Shown piece by piece: positions 3,638-13,845 of a stretch of 64,000 nt of DNA. Every line of letters starts with the position of its first letter. Position 1 is the stretch's first letter. The position numbers and the translations under genes are program-made. Origin of the DNA: Nitrosomonadaceae bacterium (GTDB lineage: Bacteria > Pseudomonadota > Gammaproteobacteria > Burkholderiales > Nitrosomonadaceae); the NCBI GenBank assembly GCA_014190895.1, contig BJGV01000004.1:26061-90060 (forward strand), in the 5' to 3' direction. Under the pieces are notes generated by a model. The model was given only the letters and a program-made list of their open reading frames with translations. It did not search any database and had not been told where the DNA came from.

Positions 3638-4093
3638 CTATAAAATTTCTAGGATGAATTTCCATTCAGTTGGATCTAACGGCGTGATAGATAAACGATT
3701 GCCTACTTGAAGAATGCGCATATTAATTAGATCCGGATATCCACGCAGCTCTTTGATGCCGATCTCACGAGTTTTTTTAACAAACCTTACATCTACGTTA
3801 AACCAGCGTGGGTTTATCGTTGTAGCTTTTGGGTCAAAATATTTACTACTAGAATCGAATTGAGTGCTGTCAGGATATGCGAGCTTACATACTTCTACAA
3901 TCCCAGCGATACCTGGTTTCTTGCAACTTGAATGATAAAAAAATATCTGATCGCCAACTCGCATTTGATCGCGCATAAAATTACGTGCCTGATAATTACG
4001 TATTCCGTACCATGCAATAGTCTGTTGTGACATCATTGCTAGACTGTCAATACTCACATCCGATGGCTCAGATTTTATCAACCAATAACGCAT
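3638..4093 (-). CDS. EVE domain-containing protein
   Basis: MRYWLIKSEPSDVSIDSL...WYGIRNYQARNFMRDQMRVGDQIFFYHSSC. Confidence 0.9.
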   Translation of the reverse strand: MRYWLIKSEPSDVSIDSLAMMSQQTIAWYGIRNYQARNFMRDQMRVGDQIFFYHSSCKKPGIAGIVEVCKLAYPDSTQFDSSSKYFDPKATTINPRWFNVDVRFVKKTREIGIKELRGYPDLINMRILQVGNRLSITPLDPTEWKFILEIL

Positions 4094-4236
4094 ATCAGGT
4101 TCTTCTTACACAGAAAAATTAAATACATTTATTTGCTTACAACACAAAAATTTATTGACCTCAATATTTCTTGAGCATTTCATATTACAAATAATATCGA
4201 AGAGAAGATATTGAGATCCCAATAATGTTAAGAAAC

Positions 4237-4638
4237 TCATATGCACTCACCTCTGGTATCTTGACTAAAAATATTAATCCATCTAGCGTCACGATGTTCC
4301 CAAATTGAGGTAATGTGGTAAAAACAATGGCTTCTATTGTGCTGATTACCAATGGGAATCATAATAGCTGAGTAAGTCAAACTCACAATCTTTTCACCAA
4401 GACAGAGCAACCGAGGATTTTTTATCTGGTACTCAGAAATTATAGGGCCATTCAAAAGTTTACTAACATGCTCCTCTTTGGTGCTGAAACCAGTTTCATA
4501 AACACCTAAAAAATCATCCGAGAGGAGACGTGCATCGGCTTCACTATCACCATTCTTTAAAGCTTCCCAGACTTCTCGCTCTAACTCAACAAAAAAATTT
4601 AAGTTATTCTTTAAATCAGTGCTTACGATATTTAACAT
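4237..4638 (-). CDS. SnoaL/DUF4440-like (NTF2 fold) protein
   Basis: ELEREVWEALKNGDSEADARLLSDDFLGVYETGFSTKEEHV pattern. Confidence 0.6.
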   Translation of the reverse strand: MLNIVSTDLKNNLNFFVELEREVWEALKNGDSEADARLLSDDFLGVYETGFSTKEEHVSKLLNGPIISEYQIKNPRLLCLGEKIVSLTYSAIMIPIGNQHNRSHCFYHITSIWEHRDARWINIFSQDTRGECI

Positions 4639-4771
4639 TTATCGGCAGACCTTCAGAAAGTAAACCAGCAAATGACATCATTTTTTAATACCCCTTGCGG
4701 CATAATATATTTCTAAAGCGGTTAATTTATTAATTATATATGCGATTTTTACACCACAGATCGACTAGGCT

Positions 4772-5080
4772 TTAGAATAACTTTTCCTGTTCCGGTATTA
4801 CTGCATCAAGTGTCGCTTGCATACGATTAATCCGGTGCTTAAATTCTCTAATATCAATCCCTCCCCTAACTTTCACGGCCAGAAGTTCCTGAGTGATATT
4901 TAGCGCCGCTACAATAGCAATGCGCTCAAGACCCATAACTTTTCCATTATTCTTAATTTCACACATTTTCTGATCGAGATAAGCTGCAGACTGCAATAAT
5001 TCTTCGCGTTCTTCTGGGGAACAAGTGAAATGAAATTCACGGCCCATAATCGCAATGTCTACAGTTTTGCTAATGCTCAT
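4772..5080 (-). CDS. zapA: Cell division protein ZapA
   Basis: VDIAIMGREFHFTCSPEEREELLQSAAYLDQKMCEI...RIAIVAALNITQELL. Confidence 0.88.
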   Translation of the reverse strand: MSISKTVDIAIMGREFHFTCSPEEREELLQSAAYLDQKMCEIKNNGKVMGLERIAIVAALNITQELLAVKVRGGIDIREFKHRINRMQATLDAVIPEQEKLF

Positions 5081-5277: not shown

Positions 5278-5365
5278 CGATTCACTATAATTTGAAAATC
5301 CCTATTAGGTCAACTGATAATAAAATATCCTTGCTATATACGATGAATTTGGATATTCTCCTATC

Positions 5366-5545
5366 GTATTTGAGGTGCTGTGATTGCTTGTTGCAATCAA
5401 GTTAAACGGGAACTAGGTGTATATACCTAGGCTGCCCCCGCAACGGTGAGTAAGTGTGGACATGTCTGTTTGTACCACTGTGAATTCTCCAATTCATGGG
5501 AAGGTGGTATGTCAAATCTTACGAGCCCGGATACCGGCCTTAAAT
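5366..5545 (+). promoter_or_regulatory. Cobalamin (AdoCbl) riboswitch
   Basis: Conserved segments aagttaaacgggaac...ctgcccccgcaacggtgagtaagt...cgagcccggataccggcct directly upstream of a TonB receptor. Confidence 0.92.
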
Positions 5546-5683
5546 CTAGACGGAAATATCACGTGGGGTGATAGGCCGGATGATGATTTATGGACGCAAT
5601 ATATCCAATTTCTCTCTAAGCTTTTCCCTTGATAATTCCATTATATCGATAAGTAGCAACACATCACCTCAAGAAAAATTTAA

Positions 5684-7753
5684 ATGCAGTCTTTTCGTCA
5701 GATTGTCTGCTCGCTTCTGATTATTTTTTTCACCCCCATCTACTTATGGGCAGATGATTCTTCTAATAATCAACTTAGCGAAGTTACTGTTACTGCAACG
5801 CGTTTTGAGCGACGCATCCAAACGCTCCCGATGAGCATCTCTGTCATTAACAGTCAGCATATAAAAGATAGTGCTGCGACAACTCTACCAGAACTTTTAC
5901 AACAACTAGCTGGAGTGCATACCCGTAATATAGATGGTAGCCCAGACTCACAAATAGATTTGCGTGGATTTGGTATGACTGGCAATCAAAATACATTAGT
6001 ACTACTTGATGGTCAGCGTATAAATGAAATGGAGATGGTTGGTATTCGTTGGTCAACTATTCCGCTAAGTTCAATTAAACGCATTGAGGTGCTACGTGGA
6101 GAAGGTGCGGTAACTTATGGTAGTGGTGCAACGGGGGGTGTAATTAATATTATCACGCATGCTGCCGTCCCTAATAAGGTGTCTAGTAATGCTGGGTTCT
6201 CTTATGGAAGCTATAGAGGGACTGAATTTAACGGCGCACTAAATGCTGCTGGTGAGAATTTTGGATTGGCATTAATTGCCAGCACACTTGAAACGGATAA
6301 TTACCGAGTTCACAATGCATTAAATCAAAGAAATCTACAAGGTGATCTGCGCTATAAGTTTTCTAATGGTAGTGCAATGTTAAAATTTGGTTTAGATGAT
6401 CAGACATTAGAGTTACCAAGTAATCGAACCGCAACACAGCTAATAAATGATCGCAGAGGGAGTTCAACACCGCGAGATTTCAGTACACGAGAAGGGGCTT
6501 ATGTCACTCTCAGAGGGGAGTATAGTAATAATTTTGCAGACTTTGCTGCTGATTTATCTTTTCGTAAAAATCATCGTACGGCACTTTTTGATGACTATTC
6601 TATAGATTACTATGACGCAAAATCATTCATCAACACATCTTCTGACACGTGGCTATTTAATCCTCGTATTAAATTTCCACTCAAAATTCTGAACGTAGAT
6701 CATGAACTAGTATTAGGGGCTAATCTTGAATGGTGGAACTATCATTCAAAACGCTTTACTGGATCGGAAACAATTCCGGGAGCAGAGTCTGCCGATACTC
6801 TGCAAGCTAATATATTATCAGGACAACAAAATCAAGCACTTTACTTACAACACACTGTCACCCTGCCTTCAAATACGATTATTACCTCAGGAGGTCGAAT
6901 ACAGTCAGCACAAAGCAAAGCTGATGATCACTCTAATTCGGAAACTTATGCCAGAGATCGACAAAAACGCACCTTGTATGCTTATGACGCAGGAGTGCGT
7001 CAGCCTTTTGGATCCAATCTCTCACTATATAGCAGGTATGCTCATAGTTTTAGGTTGGCTACAGTGGATGAAATTTATAATCAATACGGTGGCCAGGGAT
7101 ATGATTCTATAATTCAATTGCTTGAACCACAGACTGCTGATACAGGGGAGCTTGGAATAGAGTATAGAAAGAATACGTTGCGCGTGCGAACATCATTCTA
7201 TCGAACTAGCCTTAACAATGAAATTAGTTATATGAACATTAATCAAGGGGCTGGGTTTTTCTCTGCCAACACGAATCTTCCTCCCACTCGACGTCAAGGC
7301 GTTGAATTTGAGAGCTCTTGGTCACCTATCGAAAAACTTGATCTATTTAGTAACTATACTTATACCGACGCACGTTTTCGCGAAGGACTCTTCGGTGGCG
7401 TGGATGTTTCTAATAAAATAATCCCAATGGTGCCACAACACAAAATTTCGGCGGGTGGTGTATTTCGATTGACAACAAAAACACGTTTCTCAGTAGCCAT
7501 GAATTACGTAGGGAAGCAAATATACGATAATGATCAGGCAAATAGCTTCTCTCGCCGTATGCCAGATTACACCACGGTGGATCTTAAACTTGCTCACCAG
7601 ATCACCAATCTGACACTAAGTTTCTCGGCAAACAATCTATTCGATGAAAAATATTATTCGTATGGAATCCGTAATGGCTCAGGAACATCATTTTCTGCGC
7701 TACCGGCACGCGGACGCAATTTTTGGTTCACTATCAAATATCAACTCAATTAA
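5684..7753 (+). CDS. TonB-dependent outer membrane receptor, BtuB-like
   Basis: Signal peptide, TonB box-like LSEVTVTATR, plug domain, C-terminal beta-barrel strand ending NFWFTIKYQLN; under cobalamin riboswitch. Confidence 0.88.
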   Translation: MQSFRQIVCSLLIIFFTPIYLWADDSSNNQLSEVTVTATRFERRIQTLPMSISVINSQHIKDSAATTLPELLQQLAGVHTRNIDGSPDSQIDLRGFGMTGNQNTLVLLDGQRINEMEMVGIRWSTIPLSSIKRIEVLRGEGAVTYGSGATGGVINIITHAAVPNKVSSNAGFSYGSYRGTEFNGALNAAGENFGLALIASTLETDNYRVHNALNQRNLQGDLRYKFSNGSAMLKFGLDDQTLELPSNRTATQLINDRRGSSTPRDFSTREGAYVTLRGEYSNNFADFAADLSFRKNHRTALFDDYSIDYYDAKSFINTSSDTWLFNPRIKFPLKILNVDHELVLGANLEWWNYHSKRFTGSETIPGAESADTLQANILSGQQNQALYLQHTVTLPSNTIITSGGRIQSAQSKADDHSNSETYARDRQKRTLYAYDAGVRQPFGSNLSLYSRYAHSFRLATVDEIYNQYGGQGYDSIIQLLEPQTADTGELGIEYRKNTLRVRTSFYRTSLNNEISYMNINQGAGFFSANTNLPPTRRQGVEFESSWSPIEKLDLFSNYTYTDARFREGLFGGVDVSNKIIPMVPQHKISAGGVFRLTTKTRFSVAMNYVGKQIYDNDQANSFSRRMPDYTTVDLKLAHQITNLTLSFSANNLFDEKYYSYGIRNGSGTSFSALPARGRNFWFTIKYQLN

Positions 7754-7878: not shown

Positions 7879-9633
7879 ATGTCAAATATGCGTGCTCCAG
7901 ATAGCTATTGTTCCTTGTTAGCTCTACTAAACTACACCAAGCCTTATTGGAAAGTTTTGACCCTAACACTATTAAGTATGACGTTAATGGCAATCACTGA
8001 ATTAATGTTACCAGTGCTACTAAAAATAATATTTGATGACATTTTTATTCTTAATAACTACGCTTTAATACAATTAATTCCATTAGTTATTCTTACACTA
8101 TTTGCAGTGCATAGCACAGCAAATTATGTTGGCAATTATACAACGTACTGGGTAGGGAATAAATTACTCATTAACCTGTACATCAGAGCATTTGAGAAAC
8201 CATTAACTCTATCTACATACTATTCTACTGACATAATTAATAATCAACTGATTCAAAAATTTACCACTGAAGTGGCTGAGATTAATAAAACTATAGTCGG
8301 CGTAATCACAATATTAATTAAAGATACTCTCACTATTATTGGACTTCTGTTATGGATACTCTATCTGAACTCAGATTTAGCACTCCTAACTTTACTAATA
8401 TTGCCAGTGATCATTCTGGCAACACAACTTATCAATAAGAGACTGTGCATAATTGAGAAGCAGAAACGGGAAACAATTGATGAAAATACCCAAGCGCTGC
8501 AAAAATCAATTGAGAATTATAGAATGACCGTACTATATGGTGGACAGCAGCACGAAATCCTGCATTTTAAGAGTGGCGCCAATCAGCTCTATCGTTTAAT
8601 TATTAAGCAATTTAGTACCAGAGCCTTGGGCACGCTATTCGCACAAGTAATTCTTGCTACTATACTAACAATTACGGCTTATCTTACTATTCAACATGCC
8701 CCCGTTAGCGGAAATACAGCAAGCAATCTCATTTCTTTTATCGTGGCTGCATTAATTCTAATTAAATCATCAAGGCGTTACGCTAATGTAGATCAGTTAC
8801 TGCAATACTTAATAATTACTACCCAAAGTATATTTCTATTATTAAATCGGAGAAAAATACCGGACACAGGACATATTGTAATAGGTCGCACTTACGGAGA
8901 TTTACAATTTGAACAAGTCAATTTCCATCATGCTTCAGAGACAAAAGTTACGTTAGATAATATAACACTGACTATAAAATCTGGCGAAACAGTGGCGATA
9001 GTTGGAACTTATGACCTCAGCAAGATCGCATTAGTTAATATGGTAGGACGCTTCTGCTGTCCTAGTGCCGGCAGAATTTTACTTGATGGTCAGGATTTGG
9101 CAAACATAGAATTAACAAGCTTGCACGCCAATATCAGTCTGGTATCACAAGAGTTTATGCTGCTCAATGACACGATTGCTGCCAATATTGCTTATGGCGC
9201 AATGAATACGGCTGTTGAAGCAAAAATAGTGACCGCAGCACATGCCGCTAATGCAATGGAGTTTATTCGGAAGTTACCCCAAGGTTTGCAAACACTGGTT
9301 GGCAGATATGGTATAGAGCTTACAGAGGGACAGAAAGAACGTATTGCTTTTGCCCGCGCTCTGCTTAAAAATTCTCCCATTTTGATTCTGGATGAAGCAA
9401 TCTTAACAATGGATTTAGATTCTGAATATCATGTGCAGGTAGCCTTAAATACATTAATAAGAGACCGTACTACTCTTATCATTGCCCGCCGTTTATCTAC
9501 TTTAAAAAAAGCTAGCCGTATTATTGTACTGGAGAACGGTAGAATCGTCGAGATCGGTTGTCACCAAGAACTACTTGCACAGAAGGGATTTTACACTCAA
9601 CTCTATCAATCTAGCTTACAACTACCTAAATAA
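7879..9633 (+). CDS. MsbA-like ABC exporter (TMD-NBD) with degenerate NBD
   Basis: Six-TM region plus NBD fold (LILDEA, VSQ, IARRLST); Walker A reads GTYDLSKIA, signature LTEGQ. Confidence 0.85.
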   Translation: MSNMRAPDSYCSLLALLNYTKPYWKVLTLTLLSMTLMAITELMLPVLLKIIFDDIFILNNYALIQLIPLVILTLFAVHSTANYVGNYTTYWVGNKLLINLYIRAFEKPLTLSTYYSTDIINNQLIQKFTTEVAEINKTIVGVITILIKDTLTIIGLLLWILYLNSDLALLTLLILPVIILATQLINKRLCIIEKQKRETIDENTQALQKSIENYRMTVLYGGQQHEILHFKSGANQLYRLIIKQFSTRALGTLFAQVILATILTITAYLTIQHAPVSGNTASNLISFIVAALILIKSSRRYANVDQLLQYLIITTQSIFLLLNRRKIPDTGHIVIGRTYGDLQFEQVNFHHASETKVTLDNITLTIKSGETVAIVGTYDLSKIALVNMVGRFCCPSAGRILLDGQDLANIELTSLHANISLVSQEFMLLNDTIAANIAYGAMNTAVEAKIVTAAHAANAMEFIRKLPQGLQTLVGRYGIELTEGQKERIAFARALLKNSPILILDEAILTMDLDSEYHVQVALNTLIRDRTTLIIARRLSTLKKASRIIVLENGRIVEIGCHQELLAQKGFYTQLYQSSLQLPK

Positions 9634-11786: not shown

Positions 11787-11820
11787 TTATTTCACATTTC
11801 CATTAGCTTCACAGCATCAG

Positions 11821-13845
<2,025 letters not shown>

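Follow-up and report, generated by a model that had tools for sequence, protein, structure and literature searches.

An MsbA derivative with a degenerate ATP site in a family of ammonia-oxidising bacteria

Background

MsbA, the flippase of lipid A-core (equivalog profile TIGR02203; E. coli MsbA), is a full-length half-transporter in which a transmembrane domain (TMD) is followed by a nucleotide-binding domain (NBD). In heterodimeric exporters such as TM287/288, PatAB and ABCB2/B3 a degenerate NBD is selectively retained. The B12 transporter of Mycobacterium tuberculosis is an exporter-fold ABC protein. ABC-exporter-type TMDs are moreover able to work without ATP hydrolysis, as is the case for SbmA/BacA (SLiPT) and the NBD-less constructs MsbA-MD and LmrA-MD: E. 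coli MsbA without its NBD carries out pH-gradient-driven transport of ethidium and chloramphenicol (PMC4979069), and the ABC-like TMD of SbmA is powered by protons (PMC13316013). For the ammonia oxidisers, the loss of lipid A genes was reported in 2010 for two species, all that was left being lpxK in N. europaea and lpxA in N. multiformis (PMC3087551); later, sphingolipid genes were described in N. eutropha, which was reported to have the genes for ceramide phosphoglycerate lipids but no orthologue of CC_1166, the potential sphingolipid flippase of Caulobacter (PMC11324152).

Here we describe a gene within a stretch of 64,000 nucleotides (the window) of a Nitrosomonadaceae genome (assembly GCA_014190895.1, contig BJGV01000004.1), and its orthologues within a family, f1, that consists of four genera (g1-g4) of ammonia oxidisers, presumably the Nitrosomonadaceae. 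The encoded protein, hereafter pseudo-MsbA, is orthologous to MsbA by tree and synteny, has the same full-length TMD-NBD layout and largely keeps the lipid-phosphate-binding basic residues in two genera; unlike the lipid A flippase, it has a degenerate ATP site, scores under the profile cut-off and resides in a host without LpxB and LpxC. It shares with TM287/288, PatAB and ABCB2/B3 the selective retention of a degenerate NBD, but it has no adjacent intact partner, its own Walker A and signature are both broken, and its motif losses vary by lineage and are not fixed. The likeness to SbmA/BacA, MsbA-MD and LmrA-MD is a functional analogy: these have no NBD, whereas pseudo-MsbA retains a pseudo-NBD under purifying selection, and proton coupling is hypothetical here. 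With CC_1166 it would share a niche, that of moving lipids in an outer membrane that contains sphingolipid, although in f1 it is a distinct ABC exporter with intact motifs that adjoins spt, the gene for serine palmitoyltransferase.

Results

The gene occupies positions 7879-9633 of the window (+ strand, as are all window features given below) and is an ORF of 584 aa with zero internal stops, identified as a half-transporter with a degenerate ATP site from the ORF itself, Pfam and NCBIfam profiles, orthologues and the tree. Both ABC_membrane (PF00664, 83 bits, aa 30-296) and ABC_tran (PF00005, 73 bits, aa 359-507) matched above their curated cut-offs and, with the alignment to E. coli MsbA for the former, they delimit a TMD of aa 1-330 (7879-8868) and a pseudo-NBD of aa 331-584 (8869-9633). 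The best equivalog was MsbA (TIGR02203), at 497 bits under a curated cut-off of 602. The ATP-site motifs, taken from sequence and alignment and given in E. coli MsbA numbering, which coincides with that of the window protein, include: a degenerate Walker A, GTYDLSKIA (9004-9030), in which K382 is kept and G379, G381 and S/T383 are replaced by D, S and I; a kept Q-loop, VSQ (9142-9150); a degenerate signature, LTEGQ (9319-9333); a kept Walker B, ILILDE, followed by a degenerate D-loop, ILTMD, with its last D kept (together 9379-9414); and a degenerate H-loop, IARRLST (9481-9501), in which the catalytic histidine has become arginine. The A-loop tyrosine (E. coli Y351) is gone as well, and K382, Q424, D505, the catalytic E506 and D512 remain. 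The preliminary description of this gene, as an uninterrupted MsbA-like protein of 584 aa with altered Walker A, signature, D-loop and H-loop and with Walker B (ILILDEA) and Q-loop (VSQ) in place, thus agrees with the sequence in every motif quoted. The sequencing error in Walker A, or frameshift, that might have produced such a picture was rejected, because relatives carry degenerate orthologues too and the ORF is intact. Judged by these motifs the protein is predicted not to hydrolyse ATP, and it may still bind ATP through K382, Q424, Walker B and E506. The AlphaFold2 model built from a three-sequence alignment was poor (mean pLDDT 47.5).

We searched 61 genomes for orthologues. The host genome (G000) has 1.32 Mb in 25 contigs and is rated 99.97% complete; with less than half the size of most g3 and g4 relatives, it belongs to a strongly reduced member of the family. 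Every orthologue recovered from f1, in all four genera, had a degenerate ATP site, and those from other families of the order were canonical: of 13 residues that are hallmarks of the ATP site, the 37 f1 proteins (with the window's among them) lack 3-11 and so keep 2-10, and 12 orthologues from other families retain the 13. Among the orthologues recovered, those with canonical motifs, close ones of which were named in the preliminary description as a sign of simple decay, were found only outside the family. The Walker A losses are lineage-specific, with ALVGSSDDGMNTF, ALVSSSDETINAL, ALVDPVDSGKLIL, ALVGLSECDKGTL, AVVGCAETMDVL and VFTGYTEDEKNAF among the f1 variants and a deletion in most of g2, where six genomes (G008, G014, G017, G020, G023 and G029) have in common the removal of most of the Walker A loop from an otherwise intact ORF. 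Least eroded are some members of g3, of which G067, G081 and G085 keep 10 of the 13 residues; five g3 proteins just exceed the TIGR02203 cut-off with degenerate motifs, an altered Walker A among them, and a few members of g3 retain the signature motif. The catalytic glutamate is retained in 95% of the degenerate proteins. In the tree the 37 proteins of f1 group together in a single clade with an SH-aLRT support of 100; this clade lies within the canonical MsbAs of the order, and E. coli MsbA and the paralogues fall outside it. The simplest reading is that the functional ATP site was lost once, in a common ancestor, and that each lineage eroded on its own from there.

A canonical MsbA elsewhere in the genome, which the preliminary description had proposed looking for, was not found in the 99.97% complete host assembly. 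Scores of its other exporters on TIGR02203 were 399, 465 and 209 bits; the full-length ones comprise a general exporter (contig C1), a family-specific exporter (contig C2, see below) and an ABC protein of the cyanophycin-associated type. The last of these (contig C13, 34519-36267; locus L078) matches the cyanophycin-associated ABC transporter profile NF052233 at 1354 bits and has behind it two large ORFs that resemble cyanophycin synthetases. Two canonical-looking sequences from relatives were set aside: a fragment in G032, which adjoins two large proteins like those behind the host's cyanophycin-associated exporter, and a match in G016, which groups with the paralogues in the tree. Pseudo-MsbA appears dispensable, since G016 (genus g4, 100% complete) has the paralogue only and the gene was not found in the draft genomes G003, G004 and G005 of genus g1; in G003 the 1.4 kb beyond TolC contained no MsbA-like sequence.

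Where the gene is present, it is under constraint. Close relatives compared in pairs, genus by genus, gave a dN/dS of 0.17-0.34, with overall bootstrap limits all below 0.5, and values were similar for TMD and NBD (the pair G008/G029 being too imprecise for the NBD); both domains were well below 1 in all but one of ten pairs. Most neighbouring genes are held more tightly (0.04-0.2) and pseudo-MsbA is among the faster-evolving genes there, so that its constraint, though relaxed, is real. No internal stop was present in the full-length orthologues of four genera, at pairwise dS reaching beyond 1.5; in simulated neutral drift, the ORF had gained about 6 stops by 0.08 substitutions per site, a number that rose to about 24 at 0.88. 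Of the residues that are invariant in the canonical orthologues, the ATP site has kept 44%, against 70% for the remainder of the NBD (p=0.001), and the TMD has kept 57%; the NBD scaffold positions G340, G398, I437, F462 and G469 were kept at 100%. The ATP site is thus the least protected part of the protein and the NBD scaffold is kept. The lack of stops and the purifying selection together make simple or recent decay of the gene unlikely; the early decay offered as one option in the preliminary description, with a dN/dS near 1 as its mark, is contradicted by these values, by the intact ORFs and by a loss that is common to four genera in one clade.

The upstream neighbour of pseudo-MsbA encodes a TonB-dependent receptor of 689 aa (5684-7753; ORF and profile matches), which is preceded by a cobalamin riboswitch (RF00174, 92 bits; 5356-5556). 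The position directly downstream of a B12-riboswitch-controlled receptor, pointed out in the preliminary description, is therefore real, but it is ancestral: the order TauE, EVE domain, ZapA, TonB receptor and pseudo-MsbA recurs in g1-g3, and the same order is found in two other families with a canonical MsbA (794 and 714 bits on TIGR02203), cobalamin riboswitches preceding the receptor in both kinds of locus. The B12-receptor neighbourhood was thus inherited from before the catalytic loss and is not a new partnership, and the riboswitch has no place in the mechanism proposed below. The linkage is also dispensable, as the gene persists in G001, G002, G006 and the g4 genomes with no receptor next to it. 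Neighbours of pseudo-MsbA in the related loci are the TonB receptor and TolC or sugar-polymer genes. A scan of the interval between receptor and pseudo-MsbA in the window yielded no terminator, and promoter-like matches were near chance. Elsewhere in the neighbourhood, a 6S RNA (RF00013) adjoins the EVE-domain and ZapA genes in g1, g2 and g3 relatives and in one outgroup; the equivalent place in the window (4093-4772) has no 6S RNA match, a DUF4440 gene filling the interval. A TPP riboswitch (RF00059, 57.7 bits) lies at 11813-11919, upstream of a ThiC-like ORF (11950-13845).

Profile searches with positive controls showed LpxC and LpxB to be absent from all ten f1 genomes searched, which cover four genera, and present in both outgroups and E. 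coli. Nothing matched above the LpxD cut-off in the same ten, and LpxK was absent in g1-g3, the host genome included, and present in g4. The lpx loss reported in 2010 for two species hence extends to their small-genome relatives; one g4 genome carries amoCAB, which supports f1 as ammonia oxidisers. As LpxB and LpxC are missing, no lipid A substrate is expected in the host, and the loss of this substrate is probably the cause of the loss of the ATP site of MsbA.

LptF and LptG are retained in all f1 genomes examined. The host furthermore has an operon that encodes, in the gene order known for aasR-cerR-acpR-spt, an AMP-binding enzyme, a NAD-dependent epimerase-type protein, an acyl carrier protein and Spt, the serine palmitoyltransferase, which scores 594 bits on NF047599 against a cut-off of 500. 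Its only LptF-LptG pair lies behind an NTP-transferase-like gene and a 384-aa ORF, which has no Pfam or NCBIfam match and which we take, from its position, to be a putative ceramide synthase. The family-specific ABC exporter has intact motifs and is found in the host on contig C2 (134165-135841; locus L079, 8163-9842, - strand), where it adjoins a desaturase-lipid kinase protein, and in loci L135 (11029-12777), L149 (7267-8985) and L150 (7761-9464). Ten other f1 genomes have it at 53-64% identity, four outgroups have only 25-31% matches, and in G035 and G008, which belong to two genera, it lies directly behind spt; in the drafts G003 and G004 it is missing as well as pseudo-MsbA. It is the better candidate flippase, for a sphingolipid that seems to replace lipid A.

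Discussion

The history that we propose begins with the vertically inherited lipid A flippase of the family. On the present evidence, MsbA lost its canonical ATP site once, in the ancestor of f1, and then eroded differently in each genus; LpxB and LpxC, and hence standard lipid A synthesis, are missing from all ten f1 genomes tested; and purifying selection, which acts on both NBD and TMD, has kept the ORF at its full length. Together with a retained non-hydrolytic function, this course of events is in our opinion probable as a whole. A ceramide-based sphingolipid would then have replaced LPS in the outer membrane and would be flipped by the family-specific ABC exporter with intact motifs whose gene adjoins spt. 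No longer needed for lipid A export, MsbA may have been kept as an ATP-independent, probably homodimeric protein in which the pseudo-NBD would serve as a structural clamp and the cavity would bind, or passively or proton-dependently move, an envelope lipid or amphiphile.

The purifying selection on the ORF speaks for a remaining role that needs a folded TMD and a structural NBD and not hydrolysis. An ATP-independent role in lipid binding or movement is favoured by the precedents of MsbA without NBD and SbmA, and is put forward tentatively; a little more doubtful still is a naturally evolved lipid translocator or lipid-handling protein, in which MsbA, after ceramide-phosphoglycerate-type lipids replaced LPS, would have lost ATP hydrolysis and would now act as a lipid chaperone or as a flippase, passive or coupled to protons, with its pseudo-NBD serving as structure. 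Some residues bear on the ligand. R78, R148 and K299, which we take to be the basic residues contacting the lipid A phosphates in E. coli MsbA, stay basic in 8 of 8 proteins of g2 and 15 of 15 of g3 and less consistently in g1 and g4. The pattern points to an anionic lipid as the ligand in at least two of the genera, but the triad does not stand out clearly from the other basic TMD positions that are conserved. The acidic residues D41, E149 and D252, implicated in the proton coupling of E. coli MsbA, do not form a conserved set, not even among the canonical orthologues, so that proton coupling cannot be read from them.

Several other explanations have to be weighed against this one. Pseudo-MsbA might be the degenerate half of a heterodimer, energised by an intact half encoded elsewhere such as the exporter near spt. 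In favour of this, its NBD is under purifying selection, degenerate halves are common in heterodimeric exporters (PMC7756269), the same genomes hold intact exporters, and G003 and G004 lack both genes. The heterodimer is nevertheless unlikely: no gene for a partner half is adjacent, the candidate exporter is unlinked to the locus, and G007 (79% complete) has pseudo-MsbA and no detected copy of the family-specific exporter. Moreover, most members, though not the few of g3 that keep the signature, have lost this motif together with Walker A, and in these neither composite site would be canonical with an intact partner; the catalytic glutamate, usually altered in degenerate sites, is kept in 95% of the proteins. 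The pseudo-half dimerising with another half, as the preliminary description had it, finds little support. A slow decay, in which the loss of lipid A left the gene useless and drifting towards disappearance without a function today, would fit a dN/dS of 0.2-0.34, among the highest of a neighbourhood with mostly 0.04-0.2, an ATP site eroded differently in every lineage, and the absence of the gene from G016 and from the flank of TolC in G003. We regard it as quite improbable, given that, with one exception among the ten pairs, dN/dS is well below 1 for both domains and that orthologues of four genera are full-length and free of stops beyond a dS of 1.5, whereas under neutrality many stops are expected even at small distances.

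An exporter that is still driven by ATP and tolerates unusual motifs could be argued from K382, Q424, D505, E506 and D512 in the window protein and from the 10 of 13 hallmark residues in G067, G085 and G081; the window protein, however, is without the A-loop, the P-loop glycine, the Mg-ligand S/T383 and the H-loop, and other members have lost K382 or, in g2, most of the P-loop with the rest of the protein kept, which renders this reading very unlikely. Just as remote is the suggestion, prompted by the order riboswitch, receptor and MsbA that is conserved in g1-g3 and two other families and by the B12 transporter reported for M. tuberculosis (PMC3603451), that pseudo-MsbA is the inner-membrane partner of the B12 receptor, an exporter-fold cobalamin transporter in a riboswitch-controlled locus. 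Against it, a FecCD-type (BtuC-like) permease is present in the host genome, g2 and g3, the receptor is not beside the persisting gene in G001, G002, G006 and g4, and a bona fide canonical MsbA occupies the same locus in other families. Pseudo-MsbA is therefore most likely a retained, repurposed, ATP-independent membrane protein, the activity of which we infer; among the three options of the preliminary description (a pseudo-half, a repurposed membrane protein, a gene in early decay), it is the second that fits best.

Conclusions

The pseudo-ATPase derivative of MsbA is real, family-wide and apparently undescribed: our literature search, for which subscription papers and preprints were mostly beyond reach, found no description of a degenerate MsbA in ammonia oxidisers. 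The lipid A gene loss in two ammonia oxidisers and the sphingolipid genes of N. eutropha were already known; that a whole family keeps MsbA catalytically dead yet selected is noted in no paper that we found. The family offers a natural experiment on a disputed point, namely whether the transmembrane domain of MsbA can do useful work without ATP hydrolysis. The database name MsbA for such genes overstates LPS export in the ammonia oxidisers of f1, and the findings single out one ABC exporter, so far unstudied and intact in its motifs, as the candidate flippase that may serve an LPS-free, sphingolipid-based outer membrane in these globally important nitrifiers.
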